Assembly: GCF_000341085.1 (NCBI RefSeq)
Contig: NZ_ANBA01000004.1
Location: 1-64,000 of the forward strand
Direction of reading: 5' to 3'
Length of the DNA: 64,000 nt
Source of the DNA: Nocardiopsis ganjiahuensis DSM 45031
GTDB lineage: Bacteria; Actinomycetota; Actinomycetes; Streptosporangiales; Streptosporangiaceae
The notes under the pieces are model-generated. The model had not been told where the DNA came from. It did no database searches and was given only the letters and a program-made list of their open reading frames with translations. Both the position numbers and the translations under genes were made by a program. Positions 26,232-46,663 of the stretch are shown here, in pieces; position 1 is the first letter of the stretch; every line of letters starts with the position of its first letter.

Positions 26232-26873
26232 TTACCGTCCCAGGTCCGGCCCCTTCGGCTGAGGCCTCTGAAGTCCTTGCGCCCCTCTTCCCTGGCTCTG
26301 GGACGGCTGGGGGTCGGACTGCTGCCCGGCGGACGGCCGGGGAGGACCGGCCTGGGCCCGGTTGAGCAGAGATGAGGTGGTCGGCGCCGCCGAAGCGGTC
26401 TTCCCTTCCGTTCCGGCCTTGCCGGTCTCGGTCCCCGTGCCGTCCTTGGCCTCGGCCTCCGCACCCTGAGCCTGTGCCCGGGACCGCTCCGCCGAGGCCG
26501 ACTGCCCCTCCTGCCCCGCACCGGCCTTCTCGAACTCGACCGCGCCGGACTTACGGCTCTCCATCCGCAGCGAACCGTCCGCGCCCGCGTGAATGACGTG
26601 TCCGCGGGTGCCGGCCCTCAGGCCACCTTCCTGGGTCTCCTTTGTATAGTCCGACCGCGGCGGATACATTCGCCCGTCGAATTCCAACCCGGGGTCAGGG
26701 TTCTTCGGCACACCGCTGAAGTCGTCCTCGACCCCGTTCATGGTGTCGCTGACCTGCTTCATGGCATCCTGTGCGTTTTCCGCGGGAGGAAGTTCACGAA
26801 GCCGATCATAGAAGATCGAGATGCGTTCACGAATAGATTTCTTGTCCGACACCTCTTGAGGCTCATCCGCCAT
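26232..26873 (-). CDS. Unknown island protein with disordered basic tail
   Basis: Protein of 213 aa that I do not recognise. Residues 1-105 look folded (KKSIRERISIFYDRLRELPP, DAMKQVSDTMNGVEDDFSG, LEFDGRMYPPRSDYTKE, GTRGHVIHAGADGSLRME). Residues 106-213 are low-complexity and rich in Ala, Gly, Gln, Ser and Pro. The last part starts with APTTSSLLNRAQAG and runs 45 residues to a basic end. Similar Ser/Thr-LL-plus-tail endings occur in the proteins at 28642-29823 and 42266-43897, which suggests a shared export or docking signal. It lies 39 bp downstream of the small gene at 26913, forming a two-gene unit. No signal peptide or membrane helix. The first half of the DNA is more A+T-rich than the neighbouring serC. 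Confidence 0.65.
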   Translation of the reverse strand: MADEPQEVSDKKSIRERISIFYDRLRELPPAENAQDAMKQVSDTMNGVEDDFSGVPKNPDPGLEFDGRMYPPRSDYTKETQEGGLRAGTRGHVIHAGADGSLRMESRKSGAVEFEKAGAGQEGQSASAERSRAQAQGAEAEAKDGTGTETGKAGTEGKTASAAPTTSSLLNRAQAGPPRPSAGQQSDPQPSQSQGRGAQGLQRPQPKGPDLGR

Positions 26874-26912
26874 GGCAACACCCGCTGGCGGCGAACACCG
26901 AGAAGGCCCTCA

Positions 26913-27185
26913 TCAGGCACTCCCTCGCAGACGCCCGGTCACGGTGGCCAGCGCCTCATCAAGGGAACCGGCGACATTCCGAAAACCAACGAAGGCTTCG
27001 TCCTGATTCGGGTTCACGTCGAAGCCCCACTCACCTTCCGACTCGGATCCCTGGATCACGGCAAAATCATTACCGAACCAAAGATCGACCGTGACCGCTC
27101 CCGAAGGAAATACCTCCAGCCTGAACCGAGCACCTTCAGGCATACGCTCGGAAATCCACTGCTCCAGGGCGGCTTCGTCAACCAT
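26913..27185 (-). CDS. Small acidic protein, possible adaptor or immunity partner
   Basis: Protein of 90 aa with no family that I recognise. It begins MVDEAALEQWISERMPEGAR and has an alternating strand pattern (FRLEVFPSGAVTVDLWFG, FAVIQGSESEGEWGFDV) followed by a C-terminal helix (SLDEALATVTGRLRG). Net charge is strongly negative. AGAGGA lies six bases before ATG 27185; the longer in-frame reading upstream is unrelated. It precedes the tail-bearing gene at 26232-26873 in the same unit, as 29840-30439 precedes 28642-29823. Size, charge and position fit a chaperone or immunity protein, but that is inference only. Confidence 0.6.
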   Translation of the reverse strand: MVDEAALEQWISERMPEGARFRLEVFPSGAVTVDLWFGNDFAVIQGSESEGEWGFDVNPNQDEAFVGFRNVAGSLDEALATVTGRLRGSA

Positions 27186-27591
27186 CGACTTCCTCTTTTC
27201 CCAACGACTTCCGAATGAGCCTGGATAAACCGTACCCGAGAGAGGGTCTCTCCAGCCACCCTGAACATTGGACAACCGAACCGGCGCGAAGCCCTCACCG
27301 AACATGAATGTGCCGAGCGCGCACTCAGGAATATGGCTGCCTCGGGTTACGCAACAGACCGATCCGCATGGCCTACCTCGAGACCGGCAGTCCTGCGTAT
27401 CCTCTGACCCATCCATGATGTCCCGACACCGCCACCGCACCGGTCCGGCCTCCTCCGCCACGCTCCCCGCCGGAGCGTCCCAGGTCGGTGAAGCCACACC
27501 GCCGCCTCGTGGAGAATGGAAGCCGACCCGCCGCGTGTGGGTCGGCCTCCTCCTCCTACTTCCGCTCATCGCTTTTCAGGACGGTCCCACT
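27186..27591. other. Intergenic region, A+T-richer
   Basis: About 400 bases between the small acidic gene (leftward) and the phosphodiesterase gene (rightward). It must hold both promoters, but none is clear. An in-frame reading (from 27268 or 27418) extends the rightward gene across a chance hydrophobic stretch at 27535-27580; it lacks a ribosome site and I do not accept it. Confidence 0.4.
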
Positions 27592-28599
27592 GTGCGCAGG
27601 AACAAGAAGACTGAAGTCCCCATCAAGATCATTTCCCACCGCGGGGCTTCCGGTCACCGGCCCGAACACACCCTGGCCTCGTACGAACTGGGCGCCCGCC
27701 ACGGCGGGGACTTCATCGAGATGGACCTGGTCGCCACCAGCGACGGGCACCTGATCTGCCGCCACGAGCAGGAGATCGGCGGGACCACGGACGTGGCCGA
27801 CCGCCCCGAGTTCGCGGACCGGCGCACCACGCGGACCATCGACGGCCGCGAGGCCGAGGGGTTCTTCGCGCAGGACTTCACCCTCGCCGAGATCAAGACC
27901 CTGCGCGCCCGGGAGCGCATGGCCGAGGTGCGTCCGGACAACGCGGTGATGGACGGGACCTACGAGATCCCGACCCTGCAGGAGGTCATCGAACTGGCCC
28001 TGTCCCTCACCCAGCAGCTGGGCCGCCCGATCGGGATCTACCCGGAGACCAAGCACCCGGCCTACCACGTGGAGCAGGGCCTGGACCTGGAGCCGCCGCT
28101 GATCGCCGCGCTGCGCGAGGCCGAGCTGGTCGGCGAGGAGCCGAAGGTCCCCGTGTTCCTCCAGTCCTTCGAGGCCGAGAGCCTGCGCAAGCTCGCCGAG
28201 ACCGGGCTGCCCCTCGTGTACCTGATGGGCACCGAGGAGCACTGGCTGCACTACACGACTCCGGACGGCCTGGCCGAGGTGGCGACGTTCGCGCACGCGA
28301 TCGGCCCGCACAAGAGCCTGGTCATCCCCACCGACGAGGACGGCTCCCTGGGCGAGCCCACCGACCTGGTCGAGAAGGCTCACGAGGCCGGGCTGGCCGT
28401 GCACCCCTACACGTTCCGCAGCGAGAACCACTTCCTGCCGACCGACCTGCGCTCGGACGGCGACCCCAAGGACTACGGGGGCTTCGCCGCGGAGTACGAG
28501 GCCTTCTTCGAGGCCGGCGTGGACGGCGTGTTCTCCGACTTCTCCAGGCACGCCTTCCTGTGCCGCGAGCACTTTCTGGACCCGCAGCCCGAGAAGTAG
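27592..28599 (+). CDS. glpQ: Glycerophosphodiester phosphodiesterase
   Basis: GDPD/GlpQ-type enzyme of 335 aa, hydrolysing glycerophosphodiesters to glycerol-3-phosphate and an alcohol. The TIM-barrel motifs are clear: IISHRGASGHRPEHTLASYE (catalytic His), DFIEMDLVATSDGHLICRHE (metal Glu/Asp and second His), GIYPETKHPAYH, and the terminal FFEAGVDGVFSDFSRHA. The GTG start is set by AGGA about ten bases upstream. A hydrophobic stretch further upstream in the same frame (WVGLLLLLPLIAF) could be a signal anchor if a GTG at 27535 is used, so secretion is undecided. The final 60 bp before FSRHA recur at 46664-46723, bracketing the island core. Confidence 0.88.
   Translation: MRRNKKTEVPIKIISHRGASGHRPEHTLASYELGARHGGDFIEMDLVATSDGHLICRHEQEIGGTTDVADRPEFADRRTTRTIDGREAEGFFAQDFTLAEIKTLRARERMAEVRPDNAVMDGTYEIPTLQEVIELALSLTQQLGRPIGIYPETKHPAYHVEQGLDLEPPLIAALREAELVGEEPKVPVFLQSFEAESLRKLAETGLPLVYLMGTEEHWLHYTTPDGLAEVATFAHAIGPHKSLVIPTDEDGSLGEPTDLVEKAHEAGLAVHPYTFRSENHFLPTDLRSDGDPKDYGGFAAEYEAFFEAGVDGVFSDFSRHAFLCREHFLDPQPEK
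28489..28548 (+). repeat. Left copy of a 60-bp direct repeat (glpQ 3' end)
   Basis: This stretch near the end of glpQ matches 46664-46723 in the same orientation at 55 of 60 positions. Four of the five differences fall at third or conservative codon positions, so both copies derive from coding sequence. The repeats bracket the secretion-like gene cluster. Confidence 0.7.
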
Positions 28600-28608
28600 C
28601 ACCCCGTT

Positions 28609-28634
28609 CCCGGACCCGCGGACACGGGTCCGGG
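28609..28634. terminator. Hairpin terminator after glpQ
   Basis: CCCGGACCCG (28609-28618) pairs perfectly with CGGGTCCGGG (28625-28634) around a 6-nt loop, between convergent stops at 28599 and 28642. Confidence 0.65.
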
Positions 28635-28641
28635 GACTTGC

Positions 28642-29823
28642 TCAATCGCCGCGCCCGTGCCCCTTGCCCGGGCCGTCCTGACGTGGACTCCTCGGCTGTG
28701 CCGGCCTGGCCTTGGACGCAGCGCCCCTCACCGCAGGCCCAGCGTGCTCATGGGCCTTGGTGACGTCAGGACCCACGGAGGCCGATCTGGTCCCCGCCCC
28801 AGCCGAACGCGCCGCTGTGGGAGCGCCTCGACTGCCCCGGTGCAGGAGGTGGCTGGTGGTGGGCGAAGTGGACGTTGCAGGCGTGGGATCCGCAACCGCA
28901 GGAACAGTCCTGGTCGCCGTTGGGGGACCCGAAGGCCCCACAGTCGCCGCCACACCCGTACCGGGCCCTTTCAGGTCCTTGTAGGAGTCACCGCTCCGCA
29001 ACAGCTCCGATGCCCGGTCCCGTTCGTCCTGCAATCCCGGCGGTAGCTTGATGCCGTCGAGCTTGTGCGCGAGAGCATGCGGAGGCGGGGTGCTCGGAGG
29101 AAGCCCTTCCCGTGCCAACACATCCGCGGACGGGCCCTTCTCGTCGTAGTAGTCCATCGACACCTGCGCACGAACCTGGTCATGCGCCAGGAACCGGTCC
29201 ACACTGCCTGGAAGATGCGCGTGCTCAGGAAAATCGGTCACGAACTTGATGTTCTCGGCCCCGACGTCCGGATGCTTCACCAGAGCAGGGAGTTCATTCT
29301 TCCCAAGAATGGATTCCGGATGCACGTCAGGAACAAATACTTGGACCTCCCCGCGCGCAGCCTCGACAAAAGACTCGGAGAGGTCGGCCCATGCCGCGTC
29401 CCGCCCCTGCTCCACAACCGACGGGGAGACATCATAAAATTCTTCCAAATGTTCGATAATAGGCTCATCAAACAGCCTGTACGAGTCAAGTTTTTCACCG
29501 ACTGGAGTTTCGGAGAGCACTTGATAGTTTCGAGTCTTGGCGCACGCTTTTGCTTGGAAGTGACTCTCAACGGGAGCTGTCGAGGAGTCCGGGGAAGATT
29601 GAAACGACCAAAAAGCAAAGCTCTTGTGGTCGACCCTGTCCACTGGATTATTAGAGGTGTAGTCACTCAGGTACCCGAGTACATCTGGCTTCCCCCCTGA
29701 GATATAGCCGGAACTCCTGCAGTCGTCAATAAGCCTTCTCGCACTGCGCTCAACATCGCCAGGCGAAAGGTATTTGTAGTCCTCTTGAATCTTCCAGGAT
29801 TCCACCCACTCCGCGGGCGTCAT
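28642..29823 (-). CDS. Unknown island protein, candidate secretion substrate
   Basis: Protein of 393 aa, family not recognised. Residues 1-275 look globular: MTPAEWVESWKIQEDYKYLS, GDVERSARRLIDDCRSSGY, FDEPIIEHLEEFYDVSPSV, and ALVKHPDVGAENIKFVTDFP near the middle. After about residue 290 the chain is low-complexity (Pro, Ala, Gly, Ser, Arg). It carries SPTTSHLLHRGSRGAP followed by a basic 68-residue tail like those at 26232 and 42266. No signal peptide. The 5' half is A+T-rich for this genome. ATG 29823 follows AGAGG by seven bases; a GTG at 29847 is an alternative. It lies 16 bp after the gene at 29840-30439. A secreted toxin or effector is possible, but no catalytic motif is clear. Confidence 0.65.
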   Translation of the reverse strand: MTPAEWVESWKIQEDYKYLSPGDVERSARRLIDDCRSSGYISGGKPDVLGYLSDYTSNNPVDRVDHKSFAFWSFQSSPDSSTAPVESHFQAKACAKTRNYQVLSETPVGEKLDSYRLFDEPIIEHLEEFYDVSPSVVEQGRDAAWADLSESFVEAARGEVQVFVPDVHPESILGKNELPALVKHPDVGAENIKFVTDFPEHAHLPGSVDRFLAHDQVRAQVSMDYYDEKGPSADVLAREGLPPSTPPPHALAHKLDGIKLPPGLQDERDRASELLRSGDSYKDLKGPGTGVAATVGPSGPPTATRTVPAVADPTPATSTSPTTSHLLHRGSRGAPTAARSAGAGTRSASVGPDVTKAHEHAGPAVRGAASKARPAQPRSPRQDGPGKGHGRGD

Positions 29824-29839
29824 CCCCTTTCCTCTGGGA

Positions 29840-30439
29840 CTAGCCACGACTTGCCGCCTCCGCCGGTGGACAGAAAGCGATCTTCAGGACAGATGCTGCC
29901 CCGCCCTCGGCGTCCCAAGTAAACCCAGCTACGCCCAAAGTGAGCAGCACAACCGGCCCGTCGACCCCTCGAGACGGCTCCCACAAGGAAAGTCTGAAAG
30001 GATTTCCCTTGGCGGTCTCCGGCTTCCACCAGAAACCATCGACGGGCGACTCCGGGAAATCGCTGTCACCAGCAGCCCCAGACCAGGTCAGCTCCCCCCA
30101 AACTCCTGACACAAGCTCTGTGTATCGCTGCCAAGCAGCCACACCCTCCTCGACCACAGCCATCTTCTCCTCAACCACCGAAGTCTCAGCCCGCCACTGC
30201 GGATCGAAAAACTTCAGCGACACCACAGGATCCCAGTGCCCGTTGGCGGCAAGCTTGATGACGTTCCCGTGCCGTGTGAGCACCTTGAGGTCACGCTCAA
30301 CCGTTTGTGGCTTCCACTCGTACCGAGCGCACCACTCGTCAAAACCTGGGTGACCAGGAAGCGGAGGACCCTTCCAAATATCCGCCCAACCCACCCGGGC
30401 CAAATCCTCAAGCTCCAGCAGCAATGACTCACTCGACAT
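29840..30439 (-). CDS. Unknown island protein, partner of the downstream tail-bearing protein
   Basis: Acidic cytoplasmic protein of 199 aa, not recognised. Features: MSSESLLLELEDLARVGWAD at the start, many Trp residues (WGELTWSG, DGFWWKPE), and a C-terminal stretch PVVLLTLGVAGFTWDAEGG. ATG 30439 has GGAG six bases upstream; upstream in-frame sequence to 30562 is rejected. It directly precedes and is probably co-transcribed with the protein at 28642-29823, as the small gene at 26913 precedes 26232. A chaperone or immunity role fits this arrangement but is not shown by any motif. Confidence 0.6.
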   Translation of the reverse strand: MSSESLLLELEDLARVGWADIWKGPPLPGHPGFDEWCARYEWKPQTVERDLKVLTRHGNVIKLAANGHWDPVVSLKFFDPQWRAETSVVEEKMAVVEEGVAAWQRYTELVSGVWGELTWSGAAGDSDFPESPVDGFWWKPETAKGNPFRLSLWEPSRGVDGPVVLLTLGVAGFTWDAEGGAASVLKIAFCPPAEAASRG

Positions 30440-30726
30440 ACCAAACTCCACCTGCACAGAACTGCTCCTTTTCATTTCCGGCACCAGCAAGACAACACCG
30501 AACATCCCTTGCACTCCGGGTAAGCCCTGGAGGCATTTGTTGAAGTATCCACCACACCACACAACGCCCGACCCACATAGAGGCGTTGACGATCTGGCTC
30601 ATCTTGTCCGACAGGTCAGCAAGGGCCTCGGCTTCCCCGGGCCCACCCGCCGACGGCCTCGGCCCGCTCGACGGCCACACCCGTCATGGCGTAGACCTGC
30701 TGTGCCGGCCCGTACCCCTGCCCTTG
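30440..30726. other. Non-coding stretch with a possible gene remnant
   Basis: No intact gene. On the minus strand, the frame after the stop at 30727 continues QVYAMTGVAVERAEAVGGWA. A neighbouring frame then gives EALADLSDKMSQIVNASMWV before ending near 30540. The change of frame in the middle suggests a decayed coding sequence of about 60 codons. Confidence 0.35.
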
Positions 30727-31926
30727 TCAGCACATATTCTCGGATCCTCCGACCGACAAGTGGATGTGGTCGTAGTGGTTCTCGGTGTTGTTGCCTCTGT
30801 CCTCCATCGGCGTGGAAACACTCAGCCAATCACCGACGTGACCGTTCTTCCCCCACCAAATCCTCTGCTCGTAGATGACACACAGATTCGTGTATTTATC
30901 ATTGTTCATGATCAGGGCATTGATCACCTGACGCGCCTTGGCGTGAGACTCCTGATGCACAATGGAAGCATTGTGTTCAGGATACCCGACATAGAAGTCG
31001 CAAGCATTTCCACTGCCATGCTTTCCGTCATCTCCAGGTCGAATGCAGTGATAGTTTTCCTGGTTTTCCCCGATATTTCCACCCGGTGTCATATTGGCCA
31101 ACCAAACCCCCTGATCACCAAAGGTAGTGGCCATGACGATATAGAGCTCACACATCTCGGGATGGAGGGTGGGCGACCATCTGGAAGTGGGAACTCGATC
31201 GGGCCTTCCGCCACATTCCGCATTTGGGTCGACCGCCAACTCCGTGAACGCCAGGGAGTCATAGTGCTCTTTGCGCTCGATGACTTTGTCATAATATTCT
31301 TGCCCCGCGTTGTATCCGCCGATCGCGCTCCTCAGGCCGCTGTCAGTGGTGAGGTCGTTGTTACCGCTCTCACACAGGTGACCCACTGCGGCCGCCGCCG
31401 CATCGAAGACGTTCTGCGGGTCCTTTTCCCCATCGTCATTCCCGTCCTCCCCGTAGATCTCCCATGACCCAGGGATGAACTGCATGGGGCCAACAGCGCG
31501 GTCCCAGTCCGTGTCACCGTCGTACTCACCCTCATCCGTGTCTCGGATGGCCTGGGTGTTGTTGCTTCCATTGAGTGCGATTCCGATGATCGGAGGGCTG
31601 ACCTTCCCGTTCGCGTCAATGGCCCGGCCGGTGTTCGAGCCACCGTCGGAGGAACTGTAGGTTGCGTGCTTGGTCTCCACCCACCCGATAGCGGCCACCA
31701 GGGTCCACGTCATTCCCTGGCAACCTGGAGAGATTTCTTCGGCGCGCTGGGTGGCCATGAAGTAGGCCTGCAGCAGGGTGGGATCGATACCCTCAACCTC
31801 CGCAGGAAATCCAGCCGCGTGGGCGAATCCATCCATCTCGTCGGTAAACATCATCACGAATATCATCACGAACACGAGCGGAATGACAAAGAAACCGACC
31901 GGGAGCAGTACCAGCAATGCCCTCAA
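30727..31926 (-). CDS. Membrane-anchored lytic transglycosylase with C-terminal ARB_07466-like domain
   Basis: Peptidoglycan hydrolase of 399 aa, the likely VirB1-like wall-opening enzyme of the secretion cluster. An N-terminal anchor helix (residues 4-27) is followed by an MltB/SLT-type domain with the catalytic Glu84 (LVAAIGWVETKHATY), RAVGPMQFIPGSWEIYG and IGGYNAGQEYYDKV. The C-terminal 120 residues, with CDFYVGYPEHN and STPMEDRGNNTENHYDHIHL, match the ARB_07466-type domain often fused to such enzymes in actinobacteria. The start codon is TTG 31926 with GGAG upstream. It is transcribed away from the main operon from a shared A+T-rich intergenic region. Confidence 0.85.
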   Translation of the reverse strand: MRALLVLLPVGFFVIPLVFVMIFVMMFTDEMDGFAHAAGFPAEVEGIDPTLLQAYFMATQRAEEISPGCQGMTWTLVAAIGWVETKHATYSSSDGGSNTGRAIDANGKVSPPIIGIALNGSNNTQAIRDTDEGEYDGDTDWDRAVGPMQFIPGSWEIYGEDGNDDGEKDPQNVFDAAAAAVGHLCESGNNDLTTDSGLRSAIGGYNAGQEYYDKVIERKEHYDSLAFTELAVDPNAECGGRPDRVPTSRWSPTLHPEMCELYIVMATTFGDQGVWLANMTPGGNIGENQENYHCIRPGDDGKHGSGNACDFYVGYPEHNASIVHQESHAKARQVINALIMNNDKYTNLCVIYEQRIWWGKNGHVGDWLSVSTPMEDRGNNTENHYDHIHLSVGGSENMC

Positions 31927-32255: not shown

Positions 32256-32879
32256 GTGTCCGATTCTCACAATCCATGGATTTCCCCTGATGAGAGGCCA
32301 AACGAAGACGAGCCGGCGAGCCGTCCGGTCGAGGACGGTCTACATGACATCAAGGTGGAAACGACCGGACCAGTAGCCCCTCAGCCAGGCAATGGCATCA
32401 CCGCCAACGGCGGACTACCTGTCCGAACAACAGCAGAAAAGGCCAGGTTGTGGTGGGTGGGAGCACATGGAGGAGCTGGGGAGACCACGCTCTCGAAGCT
32501 CCTGAATGGATCACGTGACGCACATCATGCATGGCCGGTTCCGGCCAATCCCGAGCTCGGTTCTTCCGCTGTCGTTCTCTGCTGTCGAACCAACGCGGCA
32601 GGACTTCAGGCAGCTCAGGAAGCCCTGACCCAATGGGCCTCGGGGGCCGTGCCCGGTGTTCAGCTGCTCGGGCTGGTCCTGATCGCGGATGCGCCGACCA
32701 AACTGCCCAAGGCCCTCAAGGAGTACTCCAAGCTGGTCGGCGGAGGAGCACCGCGCACCTGGGACCTCCCTTGGGTCGAAGAGTGGCGTACCGACTCACC
32801 CGCCACGAATTCGGACCTACGAAGCTCGAACCGAAAGCTCCGCCGCTTCATCAGAAGCGCCGAACACCTCATCACCTGA
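32256..32879 (+). CDS. DUF6668-like protein with degenerate P-loop
   Basis: Protein of 207 aa. After a disordered N-terminus of 60 residues, RLWWVGAHGGAGETTLSKLL (residues 64-83) looks like a Walker A motif GxxGxGKT in which Lys is replaced by Glu. Two later strands (SAVVLCCRTNAAGLQAAQEA and VQLLGLVLIADAPTKLPK) complete a SIMIBI-like core. I recognise this as DUF6668, found in actinobacterial plasmids and conjugation-like loci. ATP hydrolysis is unlikely without the Lys; it may act as a regulator or partner of the MinD-type ATPase at 43971-46232. GTG 32256 has GGAG five bases upstream. It is the first gene of the rightward operon. Confidence 0.7.
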   Translation: MSDSHNPWISPDERPNEDEPASRPVEDGLHDIKVETTGPVAPQPGNGITANGGLPVRTTAEKARLWWVGAHGGAGETTLSKLLNGSRDAHHAWPVPANPELGSSAVVLCCRTNAAGLQAAQEALTQWASGAVPGVQLLGLVLIADAPTKLPKALKEYSKLVGGGAPRTWDLPWVEEWRTDSPATNSDLRSSNRKLRRFIRSAEHLIT

Positions 32880-32903: not shown

Positions 32904-33203
32904 ATGTTCGAAACCATCGAGTTCGCTTCTACGGCCCTGGCCAGCGCCCCCATGTTCATCGACAACGTCGACACCCAGGCTCCCCCGGGGCTGGACTCCG
33001 GCTTCACCACCATCCTCGGCTGGGCCAAGTGGCTCGCCCTCGCTGTCTGTGTCCTGGGCCTGATCATCGCCGGGGCCCTCATGGCCATTCAGTCCCGTCG
33101 GGGTGAGGGCGGCGAACACATGAGCAAGATCGGAATGGTGCTGGCCGGAGTCATCATCATCTCGGCCGCCACAAGCCTGGTTTCCTTCCTCATCGACGCC
33201 TGA
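32904..33203 (+). CDS. VirB2/TrbC-like pilin subunit
   Basis: Small membrane protein of 99 aa with the size and layout of type IV secretion pilins. It has an N-terminal segment of 33 residues (possibly processed), helix 1 (about 42-63, LALAVCVLGLIIAGALMAIQ), a short charged loop SRRGEGGEHMSKI, and helix 2 (about 77-97). The loop and both helices closely resemble residues 93-157 of the VirB6-like protein at 34027-35667. Position ahead of VirB8-, VirB6- and VirB4-like genes supports the call. It lies 24 bp after the DUF6668 gene with a weak GAAAGAAG ribosome site. Assembly into a pilus is inference. Confidence 0.65.
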   Translation: MFETIEFASTALASAPMFIDNVDTQAPPGLDSGFTTILGWAKWLALAVCVLGLIIAGALMAIQSRRGEGGEHMSKIGMVLAGVIIISAATSLVSFLIDA

Positions 33204-33238: not shown

Positions 33239-34027
33239 ATGAGTGAGAAGAAGCCGCAGGTCTCTGTTGCGACCATCGTCTCCGGGGTCTTCCTCGCCGT
33301 GGTCGTCATCGGGGGTCTCATCACGATTTTGTGGCCCCAGGACGAAACCCCGGCCGAAGACGGGTCCACAGCAACCGAGGGTGGCGAGAAGGGCCCGGAG
33401 GAGGACGCGGAGGAGGACGCGGAGGAGGACGCGGCCCCTGTCCCGTCCAGCCCTCCGTCGGCGGATCCTTCCTTCACCGCCTCCGCGAGCGGCAGCCTCT
33501 GCGGGCTCGAGCCGCACGAGACGGGCTTCGAGTACCTCATGGACCAGCACACCGAATGGGACGACGTCAACGGTATGCGTGCCCCGAGCAGCGCGGAGGA
33601 CGGCCCCGGGGTGGAAGACGGCGCAGTCCGCTACTGCTATTCGCGAACGGCTGACGGTGCCGCCCTGGCCGCGGCCAACTTCCTCGTTCTGGTCAACATG
33701 TACCCCGACCAGATGGACAGCAACTGGGAAAGACTCATCGCGCCCGGACCGGGGCGGGACGACTTCATTTCGGGGCTCGAAGAGGAGCCGGAGACAGATG
33801 CCGCTCCGGCACAGATCATCGGCGCGAAGATCGTTTCCTACACCGAGGACTCCGCGCGGGTGAGCATTGCGATCACCTCCACTGACGGCATGAACGTGAG
33901 TATGTCCTTCGACCTGGACTGGGTCGAAGGGGACTGGAAAATCGCTGTGAACGACGACGGCACAGCTGATCCGAACATGACCGTGCTCAACCAACTCACA
34001 GGGTTCACCCCCTGGGCGGCGATCTGA
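33239..34027 (+). CDS. VirB8/TcpC-like single-pass membrane protein
   Basis: Protein of 262 aa: a short cytoplasmic start, one helix (residues 10-31, TIVSGVFLAVVVIGGLITIL), then an extracellular part. A low-complexity linker contains three EEDA units encoded by a 12-bp tandem repeat (33397-33432). The following 160 residues (LCGLEPHETGFEYLM onward, ending VEGDWKIAVND and LTGFTPW) have the NTF2-like layout of VirB8-type scaffold proteins: helix, helix, then beta-sheet with a GDWKI-type strand. Two Cys (SLCGL, RYCYS) may form a disulfide. The stop TGA overlaps the ATG of the next gene (TGATG). Function by analogy only. Confidence 0.6.
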   Translation: MSEKKPQVSVATIVSGVFLAVVVIGGLITILWPQDETPAEDGSTATEGGEKGPEEDAEEDAEEDAAPVPSSPPSADPSFTASASGSLCGLEPHETGFEYLMDQHTEWDDVNGMRAPSSAEDGPGVEDGAVRYCYSRTADGAALAAANFLVLVNMYPDQMDSNWERLIAPGPGRDDFISGLEEEPETDAAPAQIIGAKIVSYTEDSARVSIAITSTDGMNVSMSFDLDWVEGDWKIAVNDDGTADPNMTVLNQLTGFTPWAAI

Positions 34028-38751: not shown

Positions 38752-40457
38752 GCCGAGCAACCAAGGCACCCACCGGGATGAACACCGAAGCCGTCGTCAT
38801 CTGGGTGGCGATCATCTCCGTGGTGCTCCTGGTCTCCACCGTGTGCGTGGCCGTCCAGGCCGGCGCCTGGTGGACCGGCACCACGGCGCCCGCCCCGTAC
38901 AACCCGTTCGACCAGGTCTTCGGGGTTCTCGGGGGAGACATCGCCTGGACACCGGCTCACACGGTCGCGCTGGTGCTCCAGTGGCTGCTCATCCTGGGCC
39001 TGCTGCTGCTCGTGTTCACCTATCGGAAGGGGGGCAGGGCCAGGGTCGACGATTCGGCCGCGCACATGGGGAGCGGTGACGACCTCGAGAAGCTGACGGA
39101 GAAGGGGGCCCTGGCCAAGGCCGAGCGACTGGGAGTGAAGGGGTCACCCGGCGTCCCGATCGGTCGCACCCTCCGGAGCCGGAAGATGCTGTACGGCTCG
39201 TGGGAGGACATGCACGTCGACATCTGGGGACCGCGTACCGGTAAGACCACCTCCCGCGCGATCCCCGCGATCCTGCAGGCCCCCGGTCCCGTCCTCGTCA
39301 CCAGTAACAAGCGCGACGTCGTCGACGCCACCCGCGGTGTCCGGGAGCTCTCCGGGGACGTGTGGGTCTTCGACCCGCAGGGCATCGCCCTCGAGGAACC
39401 GAACTGGTGGTGGAATCCGCTGAGCTACGTCACCGACGAGGTGAAGGCGGCCAAACTCGCCGGGCACTTCGTCGCCGGTTCCAGGGACTCCGACGCCAAG
39501 ACCGACGCCTTCTTCGACGGTGCGGCCCAGGACCTGCTCGCCGGGCTGATCCTGGCCGCGGCTCTGGACGACCGTTCGATCCTGCAGGTCTACACGTGGC
39601 TGACACGCCCCCACGACGACGAGGCCGTTGGCATCCTGTCCCGGCACCGCTACGAGCTGGTGGCCGACAACGTGTCCGGCGTGGTGAACTCACCGGAGAA
39701 ACAGCGCGGTGGTGTGTACGGAACCGCGATGCAGATGGTCTCCTGCCTGATGAGCCGCCAGATCTCGCCCTGGATCACCCCGCAGGGTGACGGCGGCCCC
39801 GACACGCGCAAGCACTTCGATCCGAAGGAGTTCACCGCCAGGGGCGGCACCCTCTACTCCCTGTCCAAGGAGGGCAAGGGCAGCGCCGGGCCCCTGGTCA
39901 CCGCGTTGACGGTGGCCGTCGTGGAGGCCGCGGAGGAGCTGGCGACGACGCAGAAGGGCGGCCGTCTCGCGACCCCGCTGCTGGGTGTGCTGGACGAGGC
40001 CGCGAACGTGTGCCGGTGGAACGAGCTTCCCTCGCTCTACTCCCACTACGGGTCCAGGGGCATCGTGCTGATGACCATCCTCCAGTCCTGGTCCCAGGGC
40101 GTGGACGTGTGGGGGCAGAGCGGCATGCGCAAGCTCTGGTCGGCCTCGAACATCAAGATGTACGGCGGCGGCGTCTCCGAGGTGGAGTTCCTCAACGAGC
40201 TCTCCCAGCTGATCGGCGACCACGACGTGGAGCGAGCCTCCATCTCCTCCTCCGCAGGCGCTCAGGGGGGGCGCTCGGTGTCGTGGCAGGTCGATCAGGA
40301 ACGCACCATGGACGTCGCCGCGCTGGGCTCCATGCCTCCGGGGAGGGCGGTGGTCATCGCCTCGGGCACCCCGCCGACGCTCGTGGAGACGGTGCCCTGG
40401 ATGTCCGGGCCGATGAAGGAAGCCGTGGTCGAGTCGCTGCAGCGATACGAGCCCTGA
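38748..40457 (+). CDS. VirD4/TraG-type coupling ATPase
   Basis: Type IV coupling protein of 569 aa. Two N-terminal helices (about 14-36 and 68-87) anchor it. A Walker A motif WGPRTGKTTS lies near residue 162 and a Walker B motif LLGVLDEAANVCRW near 410. LPSLYSHYGSRGIVLMTILQ is the TraM-recognition/TraG C-terminal signature, and WSASNIKMYGGGVSEVEFL follows. Such proteins select and feed substrates (relaxase-DNA or proteins) into the channel. I start at ATG 38748; longer in-frame sequence upstream is antisense-like filler within the VirB4 gene. With no relaxase in the window, its substrate may be protein. Confidence 0.88.
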   Translation: MSRATKAPTGMNTEAVVIWVAIISVVLLVSTVCVAVQAGAWWTGTTAPAPYNPFDQVFGVLGGDIAWTPAHTVALVLQWLLILGLLLLVFTYRKGGRARVDDSAAHMGSGDDLEKLTEKGALAKAERLGVKGSPGVPIGRTLRSRKMLYGSWEDMHVDIWGPRTGKTTSRAIPAILQAPGPVLVTSNKRDVVDATRGVRELSGDVWVFDPQGIALEEPNWWWNPLSYVTDEVKAAKLAGHFVAGSRDSDAKTDAFFDGAAQDLLAGLILAAALDDRSILQVYTWLTRPHDDEAVGILSRHRYELVADNVSGVVNSPEKQRGGVYGTAMQMVSCLMSRQISPWITPQGDGGPDTRKHFDPKEFTARGGTLYSLSKEGKGSAGPLVTALTVAVVEAAEELATTQKGGRLATPLLGVLDEAANVCRWNELPSLYSHYGSRGIVLMTILQSWSQGVDVWGQSGMRKLWSASNIKMYGGGVSEVEFLNELSQLIGDHDVERASISSSAGAQGGRSVSWQVDQERTMDVAALGSMPPGRAVVIASGTPPTLVETVPWMSGPMKEAVVESLQRYEP

Positions 40458-40512
40458 CCCCCCACCCATGTCGTATTCGCATTCACAGCCCAAAGAACAA
40501 GGACACGAGACT

Positions 40513-41817
40513 ATGACCTTCTTGCCAGGAAAAGCCTCGAAAGCATCCGGTATCGCGCTTTCGGTTCTCCTGCTCGCCACCGCGTGCGGCGGGGGCGGGG
40601 GTTCCGAAGGCGATGCTGAGGAAGGCGGCGAAGGGGAATCCTCCGAAGCGTCCGCCCCACTCGCCGGAGACGGTTTCCTCGCGCTGGCTTGCGGCGAGGG
40701 ATCGATCACCGTGTCCCGGTTCTCCGACGACGACGGTTCCCTCCAGGCCGAACACGTCTACTCCGCCGCCGAAGTCACGTCCGCGGACGAACCCCGGCTC
40801 CCGAACAGCCGGGTCGTCGAAACCCTCAAGAGCGTGGAGCTCCCGGACTGCGTGATCGAGTCCGACGAGACCTGGTACTACGAGGACCAGGCACTGACTC
40901 GCAACCAGGCGCACGAACTGTCCGGCCTCGTCGTCCCGGACGGTTCGCTGCTCCTGGTGGACATCGTCGAGGAGGTGGACGGCTCGGACGTGCGGACCAT
41001 CGGCGCCATGACGTCCTCCGGCGAGGTCGAAGCCCTTCTGCCCGCGGACGACGCCGACGGTTTCAGCGGGGCCCCCGTCCGGACGTCCGCCCGCTACCGC
41101 CACTCGGACGGAACCCTCACCTACCTCGAGGCGAACCCCTCCGATGAGGCCAAGACGGTGATGTCCCTCTCCGTCGACAGCGGACAGAATCAGGAGCTCG
41201 GCCCGTGTGACACCGAGTGCGGGAGGGTCATCGTCGACCCCTACTCCGAACTCGTCTACGGAACGATCGGCCCCGACGAGCCCGAGGCCAACGGCATTGA
41301 CAACAACCTCGCCCGGTACTTCTCCAACCACGACGGAAGCATGGTCGGCTTCTACACCAAGATGGCGAACGGCGGTCTGCACCTCCATCACCGCGCCGGT
41401 GACGAGTCTCCGGTGTTCAGCAGGGGAAGATGGCCCGTGAACTACAGCGAAGCCGTCGGCAAGCACGATCTGACCTACGTCGCCCCCGAGAACAGTGCGG
41501 GCGCCACCTATGCCGGCGGTCTTCCCGTGTTCACCGTGGGCGACAACGAGCTGATGCTCAGCGACAACTCCTTCACCGTTCGCGCCTTCGACGACGAATT
41601 CAGCGAGGAGACCGCGGACCGGGAGATCCTGCCCGGGAGCGACCGCGTCAACGAGCACCCGGTCCTCTCCGGGGAGCGGGACCAGATCCTCTTCCGCTCC
41701 TCCGACGCGACCGGCAACGTCTCCTGGTTCACCGTGCCCGTCAGCGGCGGAGATCCTCAGGAGATCGGGGCCGCCGAGGGAGAACACGCCACCATGGTCC
41801 CCATCCACTGGTTCTGA
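40513..41817 (+). CDS. Lipoprotein of the secretion cluster
   Basis: Exported lipoprotein of 434 aa: signal helix ALSVLLLATAC with lipidated Cys25, then a Gly/Glu-rich linker and a large domain rich in beta-strands and repeated Asp/Gly turns (DGTLTYLEAN, VIVDPYSELVYGTIG, DGSMVGFYTKMANGGLHL, PVFTVGDNELMLS, RDQILFRSSDATGN), suggesting a beta-propeller. Family not recognised. ATG 40513 follows AAGGA by ten bases; an in-frame start at 40468 gives a worse signal peptide. It lies 55 bp after the coupling-ATPase gene, so it is probably in the same operon. A surface role in the secretion apparatus is inferred from position. Confidence 0.7.
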   Translation: MTFLPGKASKASGIALSVLLLATACGGGGGSEGDAEEGGEGESSEASAPLAGDGFLALACGEGSITVSRFSDDDGSLQAEHVYSAAEVTSADEPRLPNSRVVETLKSVELPDCVIESDETWYYEDQALTRNQAHELSGLVVPDGSLLLVDIVEEVDGSDVRTIGAMTSSGEVEALLPADDADGFSGAPVRTSARYRHSDGTLTYLEANPSDEAKTVMSLSVDSGQNQELGPCDTECGRVIVDPYSELVYGTIGPDEPEANGIDNNLARYFSNHDGSMVGFYTKMANGGLHLHHRAGDESPVFSRGRWPVNYSEAVGKHDLTYVAPENSAGATYAGGLPVFTVGDNELMLSDNSFTVRAFDDEFSEETADREILPGSDRVNEHPVLSGERDQILFRSSDATGNVSWFTVPVSGGDPQEIGAAEGEHATMVPIHWF

Positions 41818-41850
41818 CGCTTCGGTTCGGTTCAGGAGAGACAGCAGTAC

Positions 41851-42213
41851 ATGAGCGACACATCCGAGACAGCGGACAACAACGGGTCGTCCGAACCCCT
41901 GCACACGGACGCCGTCGACTTCTTCGACCGCTACTTCCGCCACGTCTACAAGCGCAGGGTGGGTGTCCGCAACCAGCACCGCTGGTCAGCACGCTGGTGG
42001 GACATCCCGGAAGTCGTCATTCGCATGGACGCCATCTGGCGGGCCTGGGAGAGTCTGAGCAGCGACCCCACGGTGGGGATGAGCACCTGGCTCCGGGACC
42101 ACGCCGATTACCACATGAGTATCCTCCTGTCCCCCGACGGCCCGATGGCGAACGCGGAGGACAGCAACCAACACGGCGAACCGCTACCGCACGAAGCACC
42201 ACCCGAGTACTGA
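41851..42213 (+). CDS. DUF4913 family protein
   Basis: Small protein of 120 aa with the DUF4913 signature: FFDRYFRHVYKRRV, RWSARWWDIPEVVIRMDAIW, RAWE, then GMSTWLRDHADYHMSILLSP and DGPM. This family of unknown function is common in actinobacterial plasmids and conjugation-like islands, often near VirD4-type genes. It ends the rightward operon, 33 bp after the lipoprotein gene, and a strong bidirectional hairpin follows. No signal peptide or membrane helix. Confidence 0.82.
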   Translation: MSDTSETADNNGSSEPLHTDAVDFFDRYFRHVYKRRVGVRNQHRWSARWWDIPEVVIRMDAIWRAWESLSSDPTVGMSTWLRDHADYHMSILLSPDGPMANAEDSNQHGEPLPHEAPPEY

Positions 42214-42217
42214 GCCG

Positions 42218-42253: not shown

Positions 42254-42265
42254 TGGAGAAGACAC

Positions 42266-43897
42266 TCAGCGACCTGTCCCCTGACCGCTTCTCGTCTGGT
42301 CGACAGTGCGGTTGGGGCCCTGAGGACCGGTGCGGCCGACGCCTTCGCTCTGCTGGGCCGGAGCCTTTCGTGTGGCTCCTCCGGCCCTCTGCGCGGACGC
42401 ATCGAGCAGCTCGTTCGAGGACGGCTGGGGCGGGGCCTGCTGACCCGGCTCCGGTCCTGTGGAAGGACCGGGGCTGGAAGCTCCCCCGCTTTCCTGGGGA
42501 GCCGACTCAGTGGACTGCCCGTTGTCGGCCTCCCGGCCCTGACCGGTCTTCGAGGCTGACACACCCTGGCCCTCAGCTTCCGGGCCCTCCTGAGCAGCGC
42601 TGTCCTGCTCGACCCCCTCCTCGGCCTCAGGCGTCTCCTGTGAAACTGCCTCATCCTGAGACTGATCCTCAGCTTGGGCGCTTTCCCCTGCCTCGGCGCC
42701 TTCCTCGGCCTCGGTCTCCTCCTCCGCGACGCTCCCCTCGACCTCAGAGCGCTCCTCGGCCTCGGTCCCCTCCCCGGCCTCAGCGCCGGCCTCGGTCTCA
42801 GCACCTTGCTCGGCGTCAGAGCGCTCCTCAACCTGGGCTCCCTCGGCCTCAGGCCCCTCCTCCGCGACGCTCTCCTCAATCTCAGAGCGCTCCTCGGCCT
42901 CGGTTCCCTCCTCGGCCCCAGCACCTTGCTCGGCGTCAGAGCGCTCCTCAGCCTCGGCCCCCTCGACCTCAGGCCCCTCCTCCGCGACGCCTTCCTCTAC
43001 CTCAGTGCCTTCCTCGGCCTCAGCGCCGGCCTCGGACTCAGTGGCTTCTTCGGCTTCGGCACGCTCCTCGGCCTCCACGCTCTCCTCGGCCTCGGGGGCC
43101 TCCTCGACAAGACTGTCCTGCTCGACCCCCTCCTCGGCTTCAGGCGCCTCCTGGGAAACCGCCTCGTCCTGAGACGGCTCTTCGACTGCTTTCTCCGCCT
43201 CGGAAACGGTCTCCTGGTCATCCTTCGATTCGGCCAGGGCGCTACGCTCTGCGGCCTGCCGCTCCTGATGCTCTCTACCGGCCGCGACCCACGGGTCGTT
43301 GATCACGGAGGTCGGAACCAGCACGACCATGTAGTCCGCCTGGAACTGCTCCTGCTGGAACTGACGGTTCGCGAACACATGCCTCTGGTTCTCGTGGAAC
43401 CCGGCCAGCCCCTCAGCCTCTCGAGCATTGTTCGCGCGGAGATTCTGGGAGTCCTGTCGGAAACCGCTGAAAGCCGCCTGCCGGTCGGGAACCTGCTGCC
43501 CGTAGGTCTGGTGCACACGTTCCGGATCGATACCCCAGCGCTTCTCGCACTGGCGCCGGAACCTCCGGTAGAGCAAGCGTGCCAGCAAGCTGCCGCCGGC
43601 ATGTTCGCGCAGGTTGGCGGAGGCGGTCGCGATCTTCTCGGGGTTGGCGTCCCGCCACCACCCGTCTCGGCCCATGCCCCGCATGTTCCTGATGCTCTGC
43701 CGGCGGTGCTGCCGGTTCTCCTTCGGTGACCGGTTGTGCCGCGGTACGTCCTTCACCCCCGTACGCCCGGCTGCGTAGTTCTGTCTCATGAACTTGCGCG
43801 CGCTTCGAGCGCCTGTGTGGCGGGCCAGACTCATTCCGGTCTGGAACACCTGCTGGAGCATCTCATCGACACCGTCGTTCGGCTGTTCGACGTACAT
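42266..43897 (-). CDS. Long acidic-repeat protein of the secretion cluster
   Basis: Protein of 543 aa, family not recognised. Residues 1-215 are basic and helical (DEMLQQVFQTGMSLARHTGA, LLARLLYRRFRRQCEKRWGI, FANRQFQQEQFQADYMVVLV). Residues about 215-470 are Glu/Ala-rich imperfect repeats of about 40 residues (units starting EERSDAEQGA and containing EERSEIEESVAEEGPE). This acidic block is bracketed by two copies of SQDEAVSQE[AT]PEAEEGVE. The last 75 residues are Pro/Gln/Gly-rich and basic, with PSSNELLDASAQRAGG 47 residues from the end, like the tails at 26232 and 28642. ATG 43897 follows GAGG by about eight bases. It is probably co-transcribed with the MinD-type gene upstream (73-bp gap). 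A secreted or channel-associated protein is possible. Confidence 0.65.
   Translation of the reverse strand: MYVEQPNDGVDEMLQQVFQTGMSLARHTGARSARKFMRQNYAAGRTGVKDVPRHNRSPKENRQHRRQSIRNMRGMGRDGWWRDANPEKIATASANLREHAGGSLLARLLYRRFRRQCEKRWGIDPERVHQTYGQQVPDRQAAFSGFRQDSQNLRANNAREAEGLAGFHENQRHVFANRQFQQEQFQADYMVVLVPTSVINDPWVAAGREHQERQAAERSALAESKDDQETVSEAEKAVEEPSQDEAVSQEAPEAEEGVEQDSLVEEAPEAEESVEAEERAEAEEATESEAGAEAEEGTEVEEGVAEEGPEVEGAEAEERSDAEQGAGAEEGTEAEERSEIEESVAEEGPEAEGAQVEERSDAEQGAETEAGAEAGEGTEAEERSEVEGSVAEEETEAEEGAEAGESAQAEDQSQDEAVSQETPEAEEGVEQDSAAQEGPEAEGQGVSASKTGQGREADNGQSTESAPQESGGASSPGPSTGPEPGQQAPPQPSSNELLDASAQRAGGATRKAPAQQSEGVGRTGPQGPNRTVDQTRSGQGTGR
42600..43174 (-). repeat. Tandem and flanking repeats within the acidic-repeat gene
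   Basis: Two nearly identical 62-bp segments (42600-42661 and 43113-43174) bracket a block of imperfect repeats of roughly 120 bp. All keep the reading frame of the host gene, so length variation by recombination would preserve the protein. Confidence 0.65.
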
Positions 43898-43970
43898 CCG
43901 TCATCCTCGTTCGGGGGAAGCCCATCCATGGGGCGTGCGGGCTGAAGCGGAACCGAGAGGCTCGGAGAAC

Positions 43971-46232
43971 TCAACGCATCCTCGCAAGCCCTTCCACAGT
44001 CAAGAGGGCCATACGTCGGCAGGCGGAGCGGGTGGGTTCCTGGAGGCGTTCCAGGTGGATGACCCCGCCGTCGGCCAGGTGTTCGTCGTAGGGAATGCGC
44101 ACGACCCCGCCGGTGGACCGATCGATCCGGCTCTCCAGATCCTTGATCTCCTGGCTGGGCGCAGCCTTGCGATCCACGCGGGTGATGACGACGATCGCCC
44201 GGTTCGCCAGATCCTGATATCCGTTCTGCGCCAACCAGGAGAAGGTCGATTCGGCTGATCTCACCGAGTCCAGGGAGGGTTCGAGCACGACGATCACCTG
44301 ATCCGTCATCCCCAGCACTTCGGACATTCCGGGCCGGTACAGGCCGGTTCCGCAGTCGTTGAGGACAAGGTCGTAGTACCTGCCCAGGAGGTCCGCCACC
44401 GCGCGGTAACGCTTCTCGTCGATGCCACCATGCGTGGTGGGCACCGCTGGGGCGACCAGGGCGTGCAGCCTGGCATCATTCACGGACACGTACTGACGGA
44501 GTTCGGTGTAGCTGCCGATCTGCTCGGCTCGGGAGCTCAGGTCATGCAGGGTCTGCTTGTTCTGAAGCAGGATCCGATCACGCAACGTGCCCCGGTCGGG
44601 GTTGGCGTCCACAACGACCACCCTGCTCTCCCTGGCGGAGGCGAGGAAGGATCCGAGCAGTACGGAGGCGGTGGTCTTGCCGACACCCCCCTTGAGGCTG
44701 AGTACGGTGATCCTGCGGTGCACGGGGAGCGGGATCTGGATGCCGCTCATGAAGTCAGCGTGGCTGAGCTGGTCACCGGCTCGCTGGGCTTTGTCTCCGA
44801 GTCCGGGCAGGAAGCGACGAAGCCCACCCGAACGGGGCCTCAACGACACGAGTGGACCGGTCGCGGTATTCGCCGCCCCGGCCGTGGGCTGCGGCCCGGT
44901 GGGCACCCGTTCCCTGTTGAGCTCGTTCATTGCGCTCTGCCAGGCGTTCACGGCTTCCGCTGGACTGATACCCGACGTCGGCGGCATACCGTCAGGGCTG
45001 GCCGGCGCAGCAGGCTCAGAGGACGCTGCGGGGCGCTGTCGCGGTGGAGCGTCTGCGAAACCCGGGTGAGCGGAGGGCCCCGGCGGCACCCCGGGCACAG
45101 CGGACCTTCCTGCCGACGGACCTCCTCCGGAGCTGTCGGAACCGGGGCCCCCGGGAGGAGACACCGGTTGTCCATGCAGCGAACCCAGCCCAGGGACGGG
45201 GGCGGAGTTGGGAGGAGCATGGTCAGCACGAGCGGCTCGGGGCCCAGGAACGGCCTCCTTCGAAGGAGTGTCAGGAGGAGTCCTCGCCTCCGTGAGCGGC
45301 CCGAAGGATTCCCCCAGACTCGAAGAGACGTCTACGATCTCGTCCTCCGTGCGCTCGATCCGTTCGGGCTCCGGTTGAACGGCCTCCACCGACACCTGTC
45401 CGGCTGCCTGGCCCGGGCTCGGCTCGACACTGGGTCCGCCCTCCGCCACCGAAGGCGCCGGGCTCTTCACCGAGGGCTTCTCGTCCGCAGGCAACGCGGC
45501 CGTCAGCGGTCCGGATGACGGTCCGGAGGGTTCGGCTCCAGGGGCGGTCCCGCCGACAGGGATCTGGGGAGCTGGCGCCGCATCGGCCTCGGGCCGTGGC
45601 GCGTTCGTCTCCGGTTCGGCCCGGTCGTTTCCCTCCCCCGCCGAGGAGACCGGCTCCGGAGACCTCGTGAACGGTGCCGGAGGCCGGGACTGGGGTTCGG
45701 GGCCCTGGCCTACTGTTCCCTGGGGTTCAGGAAGGTGACCCACCGTTCCCTGCGGCCGGTCGAAAGCCTCGTGAGGGTCGGCGGCGGCTGGTGAGTGCGA
45801 CTCAGATGGAAGTACTCCACCGGTGGACTCGCTGATGCCCTCCGACGCGGTCCTGCCTCCCCCTCTCAGGCGAAAGCGGCGCTTCTTCTGGGGCTTGGAA
45901 TCAGAGGTCGGCTCAACCCTCTGGGTCTTCTTGGCCGGCTTCTCTTTCTTCTGTTTGGGCAGTTCAACGGACGTATCGCTCTCGACAGCCCCGTCTTCGT
46001 AGACGATCAGGGGCCACTCACCCGAGGCGTCGATTGTTCGAGCGCGAACAGGGCGCTTCAGTTTCCTCGCGGTATCCGCGATCACGGCCACGACTTCGAC
46101 CCTCAGTTTGGAAACATCCTCGTGGGACACAGCGTGCGCCACACCGTTGACCATCACCCTGGCCCGTGTGTCGTCGACGATCTCTGCGGTAATCCTCGGA
46201 AAATCCGGCACCTGTCCGTGATCTGTTCTCAT
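43971..46232 (-). CDS. MinD/ParA-type ATPase with long disordered N-terminus
   Basis: Protein of 753 aa. Residues 1-85 form a small conserved domain (FPRITAEIVDDTRARVMVNG, GEWPLIVYEDG). About 85-490 are low-complexity, Pro/Gly/Ser/Glu-rich. The C-terminal 260 residues are a MinD/ParA ATPase with deviant Walker A ITVLSLKGGVGKTTASVLLG (around residue 519), VVVVDANPDRGTL, LVLNDCGTGLYRPGM and AIVVITRVDRKAAP. The layout recalls EspI-type ATPases of ESX (type VII) loci and the MinD-like proteins of actinobacterial conjugation loci. It might position or gate the secretion apparatus. ATG 46232 has a purine-rich ribosome site (GAGGAGAGAGG); an upstream reading to 46271 is not preferred. Confidence 0.82.
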   Translation of the reverse strand: MRTDHGQVPDFPRITAEIVDDTRARVMVNGVAHAVSHEDVSKLRVEVVAVIADTARKLKRPVRARTIDASGEWPLIVYEDGAVESDTSVELPKQKKEKPAKKTQRVEPTSDSKPQKKRRFRLRGGGRTASEGISESTGGVLPSESHSPAAADPHEAFDRPQGTVGHLPEPQGTVGQGPEPQSRPPAPFTRSPEPVSSAGEGNDRAEPETNAPRPEADAAPAPQIPVGGTAPGAEPSGPSSGPLTAALPADEKPSVKSPAPSVAEGGPSVEPSPGQAAGQVSVEAVQPEPERIERTEDEIVDVSSSLGESFGPLTEARTPPDTPSKEAVPGPRAARADHAPPNSAPVPGLGSLHGQPVSPPGGPGSDSSGGGPSAGRSAVPGVPPGPSAHPGFADAPPRQRPAASSEPAAPASPDGMPPTSGISPAEAVNAWQSAMNELNRERVPTGPQPTAGAANTATGPLVSLRPRSGGLRRFLPGLGDKAQRAGDQLSHADFMSGIQIPLPVHRRITVLSLKGGVGKTTASVLLGSFLASARESRVVVVDANPDRGTLRDRILLQNKQTLHDLSSRAEQIGSYTELRQYVSVNDARLHALVAPAVPTTHGGIDEKRYRAVADLLGRYYDLVLNDCGTGLYRPGMSEVLGMTDQVIVVLEPSLDSVRSAESTFSWLAQNGYQDLANRAIVVITRVDRKAAPSQEIKDLESRIDRSTGGVVRIPYDEHLADGGVIHLERLQEPTRSACRRMALLTVEGLARMR

Positions 46233-46663
46233 GACCTCTCTCCTCGGGTGAGCGCAACTACACAGGTCCATCCGAAGGGCAGTGCTCTGGATTCACGCGT
46301 CGGGGCGCAAAGCTCCACAGAGAGCCCGCCGTGCCACTCAGGTGGCTCCTGAGCACACGGTCGCACTACTGTGACCGTCCTGCACGGTAGTTGGTTCGCC
46401 ACATATTCGATAAATCACTCGTCGGCGCACACGGCTGCTTTTTCTATCCCTATGCGCACGGAGCAGGGACAACACCCCCATATGGCCAACAAGTGGTTCA
46501 GGACGTTTCTCTGGGCCATCACCTGGAGGAAGAGGGCACCGCGCGTTGACCGGGAGAGCGATGGCCTGTACGCAGCACTGATCTTCGATGTGCGGATCGA
46601 GGTCCGTACGAGCTGGGAGAATCCTGACCACAGAGCGTTCCTTCTCCTGTTCCCCGCGCCTGC

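Follow-up and report, generated by a model that had tools for sequence, protein, structure and literature searches.

Whether a type IV secretion system (T4SS) of a Gram-positive bacterium can be given over to the export of proteins is the question raised by a locus of Nocardiopsis ganjiahuensis DSM 45031, located in the 64,000-nucleotide stretch analysed here, hereafter the window (GCF_000341085.1, contig NZ_ANBA01000004.1, positions 1-64,000, forward strand). The genome is a 7.35-Mb draft, and this contig belongs to the chromosome. In a 2025 review, nearly all known functions of Gram-positive T4SSs are limited to DNA transfer, and dedicated effector translocators are presented as a long-standing question, the island 89K of Streptococcus suis being an effector example (PMC12857230). 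The island described here is probably a domesticated chromosomal T4SS whose cargo is protein toxins in place of DNA. It offers a concrete case with named cargo, immunity candidates and a candidate signal, and thus makes the question of dedicated Gram-positive effector export directly testable. Throughout, G0xx denotes genomes of the genus or family, L0xx fetched loci, and "o" plus a number an open reading frame (ORF) named by its length in amino acids.

A complete minimal Gram-positive T4SS is encoded in one locus, comprising transglycosylase, pilin, VirB8, VirB6, SCO6880, VirB4 ATPase and VirD4. The T4SS-like island listed by a first-pass annotation of this DNA is thereby confirmed, through Pfam and NCBIfam matches, a PDB match for VirD4 and the NTF2 fold of VirB8. 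The channel proteins give weak but consistent family matches. The VirB1-like membrane-anchored transglycosylase (30727..31926, minus strand) has weak SLT matches, one N-terminal hydrophobic segment and an orthologue in 5/5 islands, and the VirB2-like pilin (32904..33203, plus strand) matches PF18895 (1.6e-5) and PF04956 (5.4e-5). They are accompanied on the plus strand by the VirB8-like NTF2-fold protein (33239..34027) and a polytopic VirB6/TrbL-like protein (34027..35667; PF04610, 3.3e-4) with a pilin-like N-terminal segment. The SCO6880 family protein (35651..37153, plus strand; NF042935, 5.7e-174) probably supplies the membrane region and N-terminus of a VirB4 split in two, and the following gene encodes a VirB4-type ATPase domain (37150..38751, plus strand; NF045971, 6.2e-13; Walker A GKPGLGKS, Walker B-like FVILDE). 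The VirD4 coupling protein (38748..40457, plus strand) matches PF12696 (2.4e-32), PF02534 (4.5e-24) and, in the PDB, TrwB (3.8e-4). The VirB4 single sequence had no PDB match at 0.01, Foldseek returned no match for the VirB8 model at E <= 0.001, and a PHROGs scan of 10 island proteins gave weak matches only.

What this machine might carry is suggested by the genes at its left flank. The first candidate effector, o401 (28642..29847, minus strand), is predicted to be a NAD(P)-degrading toxin with the CD38-type fold of ADP-ribosyl cyclases (ARC), and its tail ends in GKGHGRGD. The candidate immunity gene o240 (29840..30562, minus strand) overlaps the start of o401, its true start being perhaps downstream of 30562, and an o240-like gene lies directly upstream of stand-alone o401-like genes in 9/9 cases. 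A YD-repeat protein also ends in a domain of the o401 type, and a search of viral contigs for further o401 homologues returned none. In a PDB profile search ADP-ribosyl cyclases rank first, weakly (E 0.07 and 0.18), and a low-confidence structure model of o401 aligns best to ARC toxins; taking its poor confidence into account, the model was weighed only together with the sequence evidence. The catalytic residues of ARC-type toxins are two Trp and two Glu (W273, E299, W323 and E356; PMC12605009). In alignments from these weak matches (numbering of PMC12605009, chain offset 238), E113, W153 and E185 of o401 align with E299, W323 and E356, and the first catalytic Trp, W273, is not aligned. W153 and E185 are invariant in three orthologues, with E113 shifted by one in L081. 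With the toxins Tac1 and ARCtox, o401 may share the predicted fold and the three aligned catalytic positions, and like them it has a gene beside it that is a candidate for immunity; unlike them, since they are tied to type VII secretion (T7SS), type VI secretion (T6SS) or contact-dependent inhibition (CDI), it stands alone beside a T4SS (PMC12356396, PMC12605009). T6SS, T7SS and CDI are the delivery routes named in these two 2025 papers. An NAD(P)-degrading ARC toxin with o240 as its immunity partner is the prediction for this pair.

The second pair is formed by o213 (26232..26873, minus strand), a candidate effector with a domain of unknown function of ~110 amino acids and a Pro/Gly/Arg-rich tail ending in PKGPDLGR, and by its candidate immunity protein o90 (26913..27185, minus strand; 90 amino acids, with an internal ATG of a longer ORF as its start). 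Among 250 family genomes, o213 has homologues in two others, both with relaxase-like tails (ends DRGPER and DRGPEL), and an o90-like gene directly precedes the o213-like gene in 3/3 genomes (own, L259 and L260; E 2e-6). The genes at 26232, 28642 and 42266 had been suggested to encode protein substrates on which VirD4 may act. The paired toxin/immunity-like genes at the first two positions, and the relaxase-like tails on toxins of unrelated folds described below, favour this suggestion, which does not hold as well for the third, o543 (42266..43897, minus strand), a protein with acidic repeats and the tail end SGQGTGR. Because its family (29 homologous ORFs in the fetched loci) adjoins relaxases in conjugative relatives, o543 is more plausibly an accessory protein linked to the T4SS than a substrate.

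A candidate signal for export is found at the C-termini. The flank proteins of the island end in long Pro/Gly/Arg-rich tails, and similar ends occur in the relaxases of conjugative relatives (..GADRGPER, ..GHDRGGLDR) and in cargo such as Zeta (..GKGPDIER, ..DRGTER), GT4 (..SERGPER) and o213-like proteins (..NDRGPER), so that the likeness to relaxases spans toxins of unrelated folds; Fic toxins of related loci also have disordered tails of this kind. A six-position score model was trained only on the 11 distinct tails of 14 relaxases, its threshold being set so that 2% of the 1,626 distinct tails of the background pass. It was passed by 12/30 distinct cargo tails (binomial p 3e-13), including 9/15 of Zeta cargo, by 11/25 distinct tails of the o543 family, and by 4/9 tails of homologues found later by homology search (p 2e-5); the tail rows are related by descent, and these p-values overstate their independence. 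Such tails as a general trait of Zeta kinases can be ruled out, since among the remaining Zeta-type ORFs of the genus only 1/25 distinct tails passes. A two-part regular expression (a helix-like part plus the end), devised post hoc after the tails were seen, matches 6/14 relaxases, 6/31 cargo rows, 0/24 other Zeta rows and 1/1,938 background genes, the last being o213 itself. By the model scores, the group as a whole shows a clear relaxase-like signal, and the island of the window a moderate one.

The composition of these sets has to be specified. Relaxase matches L127 and L128, whose C-termini are not comparable, a Zeta-like chromosomal gene that is ubiquitous and lies on the own contig, and two fragments of Fic from L086 were left out of the tail counts, and relaxase fragments L089 and L093, together with o213, out of the background. 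The cargo set includes o213 by position and not by domain, and it fails the threshold; a 787-aa and a 368-aa protein stand outside the set, and both fail when scored. The other-Zeta control includes L231 and L251, and among the 30 Zeta loci L230 was left out, L247 runs off the end, and L233 and L234 were already cargo. On contig C4 of the own genome, outside the window (77778-78926), a Zeta-type kinase gene present in most genus genomes searched lacks the tail and served as a control. In Marinitenerispora, a Fic protein (L090:7123-7932) and a 368-aa protein not related to it (9123-10229) carry near-identical long tails, whose pattern, ..GPT(D/E).P..S.GPRRP, is unlike the relaxase type.

No relaxase had been seen in the first reading, and this observation stood: no relaxase family matched among the window proteins that were scanned with Pfam and NCBIfam, by which a relaxase hidden among the flank ORFs is ruled out, and a whole-genome search covering four families found no PF03432, PF08751, PF03389 or PF13814 in the own genome. 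The same search detects relaxases where they are expected, as with a PF08751 gene 18 kb from SCO6880 in G031, and 18/80 named loci contain relaxase homologues (8/54 of the full-length ones). PF03432 and PF08751 are also absent from G013, G033, G007, G014 and G039, each of which has this system or a sister of it. In the proposed comparison of the locus across relatives, the same site is occupied in 5/40 genus genomes, the own genome lacks the four families, and relaxase families are present elsewhere in several sisters. One proposal is that the island provides conjugation in trans, for plasmids or other elements with relaxases that are gained and lost. A small replicon of G006 with PF03432 and PF08751 genes fits this proposal, as does the conjugative nature of sister systems, but the replicon's PF03432 proteins have PATYTPYR at their C-termini and lack the relaxase-type tail, and the own genome is devoid of the four families, so that we regard it as improbable.

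Relaxase-less T4SS loci are also seen beyond Nocardiopsis. In 16/80 named loci (L130-L158; Kribbella and one Streptomyces-labelled record) a sister T4SS lies beside rplI, with a dnaB-like gene also in view in 9/16 and no relaxase homologue seen within the 10-kb flanks; these Kribbella-type loci are a separate chromosomal relaxase-less lineage. Pseudoclavibacter loci L134, L135, L137 and L145 are chromosomal, adjoin an aminoacyl-tRNA-synthetase-like gene and show no relaxase homologue in the fetched DNA.

The history of the island can be read from its site. It sits between GDPD and gene o468 in the own genome, G033, G013, G011 and G006, where the gene set is also alike; across the genus, 27/40 genomes give SCO6880-family matches, 20 of them above the cut-off. 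Since GDPD and o468 are only 69-111 bp apart (between alignment ends) in 4/20 fetched relatives, the island is taken as an insertion. A 61-bp stretch inside the 3' part of GDPD (28488..28548, plus strand) recurs as a direct repeat, 92% identical, at 46663..46723 (plus strand), and these GDPD-derived repeats look like an integration scar; the flanking repeat was not found in the islands of G013, G033 and G006. As noted earlier, no integrase is apparent, none of its families being matched among 19 proteins scanned with Pfam. A degraded conjugative element was the alternative proposed at the outset, and as ancestry it is probably right, the island being flanked by these repeats. As a full explanation it would be a parked element with a residual T4SS, whose toxin-partner pairs act inside the host cell as addiction or anti-competitor modules; sister systems on plasmids (SCO6880 homologues are present in 449 plasmid records) and the Zeta/PhdYeFM and Fic/VbhA pairs, classic toxin-antitoxin combinations, speak for it. 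However, all core T4SS genes are open and subject to purifying selection, five species share site and gene set, and addiction leaves a relaxase-type tail on toxins of unrelated folds unexplained. As such, it is disfavoured and considered unlikely.

The constraint shows in the comparison of the own genome with G013, in which nonsynonymous (dN) and synonymous (dS) divergence amount to 0.07-0.09 and 0.58-0.87 for SCO6880, VirB4 and VirD4 (dS 0.58-0.63 for VirB4 and VirD4 alone), against a dS of 0.32 for serC. The cargo gene o401 is more diverged (dN 0.33, dS 1.63), and the cargo varies by strain, with Zeta kinase, GT4 glycosyltransferase and others at the same or related loci, where Zeta, Fic and GT4 toxins have antitoxin-type neighbours; the effectors are exchanged or fast-evolving. 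Orphan effector or immunity genes are found at the GDPD site in G001, G026 and G007, among them an o90 homologue of G001 that lies between serC and GDPD (E 2e-26) and a lone o240 homologue in G007, and toxin or immunity genes persist at the site in two relatives that have no T4SS there. The gap between GDPD and o468 is a cargo site in G026 and G001, where it contains tailed genes, Zeta-like ones among them, but no T4SS (L200:3900-9400 and L202:4000-10600). The toxin/partner pairs, the relaxase-like tails, the absence of the relaxase families and the effector/immunity-like genes at T4SS-less sites together strengthen the case for delivery.

Another function to be considered is that of a developmental channel for sporulation or chromosome segregation, akin to the Streptomyces Cmd cluster. 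The chromosomal, T4SS-like Cmd genes include the VirB4-like CmdB, and CmdB, C and D have SCO6878, SCO6880 and SCO6881 as similar proteins; sporulation is abnormal in cmd mutants, and deletion of the cmd genes left transfer of the SLP2-derived plasmid pQC542 unchanged (PMC2782261). Although the VirB4-like and SCO6880-like proteins are shared with this cluster and with SLP2, whose genes are needed for plasmid transfer (PMC2782261), VirD4 and the toxin/immunity pairs set the island apart. Mutants of SCO6878 or SCO6881 show no such sporulation defect (PMC2782261), and occupation of the site in only 5/40 genus genomes is too patchy for a core developmental role, which makes this function very improbable.

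Other effector-delivering systems provide closer parallels. In alpha-proteobacterial T4SSs, relaxases and Fic or Zeta toxins (VbhT, PezT/Zeta-BID) share a C-terminal BID signal that includes a charged tail (PMC6509941). As here, those toxins adjoin T4SS genes and one C-terminal signal is found on relaxases and toxins; unlike here, BID is a folded domain of ~100 amino acids, in another phylum and envelope (PMC6509941). The island is a relaxase-less chromosomal version, and no BID family was matched in Pfam scans of the flank and toxin proteins. By analogy, the BID logic is the closest to the one proposed, and a signal common to relaxases and toxins appears to be present here, analogous and not homologous to BID. 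The X-T4SS of Xanthomonadales, which kills bacteria, is also chromosomal, with effector/immunity pairs and a VirD4 that reads the effector C-terminal region, in line with what is proposed here; it differs as a Gram-negative class A system with VirB7/9/10/11, a VirB7 with an N0 domain and the XVIPCD signal (PMC6536674), and none of the VirB7/9/10/11 and XVIPCD families matched among the island proteins. The T4SSs of Patescibacteria resemble the island in being monoderm, in lacking a relaxase in most clusters and in their VirB2-like pilins, but they belong to another phylum, with no shared-tail toxins described in the portion of text consulted (PMC12102498). Effectors are known to be sent along with DNA by conjugative elements (PMC5512222). 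Among the matches listed in open-access literature, none described an SCO6880-type T4SS that delivers toxins.

It is proposed that the island began as an integrative conjugative element, whose insertion at the GDPD 3' end is suggested by the repeats. This element would have lost its DNA-processing genes and retained, judging by homology and fold, the channel (VirB1, B2, B6, B8, SCO6880 and B4) and the coupling ATPase VirD4. VirD4 would recognise a C-terminal tail that is disordered and closes with a Gly/Asp/Glu-Arg motif, the statistical sharing of tails with relaxases of sister conjugative plasmids pointing to this step, and the channel would pass the protein through the wall. The predicted cargo would be the pairs o401/o240 and o213/o90, with o401 entering a neighbouring cell and destroying its NAD(P)+, and o240 protecting kin. 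Neighbouring bacteria are the likely target, given that the toxins come with immunity-like genes, some of which survive as orphans. The island is real and conserved, and is predicted to be a new variant of effector-delivering T4SS. A wider proposal, which we favour by a narrow degree, is that this would be the first dedicated interbacterial toxin-injecting T4SS of Gram-positive bacteria: actinobacterial conjugation machines would recruit toxins (NADase, Zeta, Fic, GT4) that have copied the short, Arg-ended signal at the C-terminus of the relaxase, and Nocardiopsis would have discarded the relaxase, leaving a pure weapon with swappable effector/immunity cassettes.

Several points weigh against toxin delivery by a domesticated T4SS. 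The basis is entirely computational, the o401 model has a pLDDT of 51, and o401 matches PDB sequences weakly. Only 3/15 non-Zeta cargo tails pass the model, and the empirical p of the own tails is only 0.038 (o401), 0.065 (o543) and 0.127 (o213). Some cargo tails lack the motif, such as the HAD-like proteins of G039, G014 and G007 and the o401 homologue of G026; since the Group 2 proteins of G039, G014 and G007 have other ends (..GSGPSKK, ..NSVSR) and fail the model, the signal, if there is one, varies. A relaxase is also present in six of the loci with Zeta or Fic homologues, and therefore such toxins ride on conjugative elements too. PF13814 genes occur elsewhere in G013, G033, G007, G014, G039 and G006 (in the first five, on contigs other than that of the T4SS), PF08751 genes on other contigs in G011 and G006, and PF03432 genes also in G006; the genome is a draft, and the relaxase search covered four families. 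Finally, the counterpart repeat of G011, 92 bp with 98.9% identity, is near-perfect and may mean recent integration in that genome.

Among the plasmid records with SCO6880 homologues, 180 of the 449 are non-mobilizable according to MOB-suite, and SCO6880-family plasmids without a relaxase, or with an undetected one, may be common. In a conjugative-type locus of Knoellia (L126:12492-17948), a relaxase (PF03432, 7.9e-17), a Fic toxin and a VbhA antitoxin are encoded side by side. Within the window, the 34264-34482 segment of the VirB6-like protein is homologous to the pilin gene product of 32904-33203 (46.6% identity, E 1.6e-15); related loci show this pilin-VirB6 fusion as well. The remaining genes of the island encode a DUF6668 protein (32256..32879, plus strand; PF20373, 2.3e-14), a lipoprotein-like accessory protein (40468..41817, plus strand) with a lipobox, LLLATAC, recognised by eye and an orthologue in 5/5 islands (39-55% identity), a DUF4913 protein (41851..42213, plus strand; PF16259, 1.5e-29), and a MinD/ParA-type ATPase with a long disordered middle (43971..46271, minus strand; PF01656, 3.7e-12).

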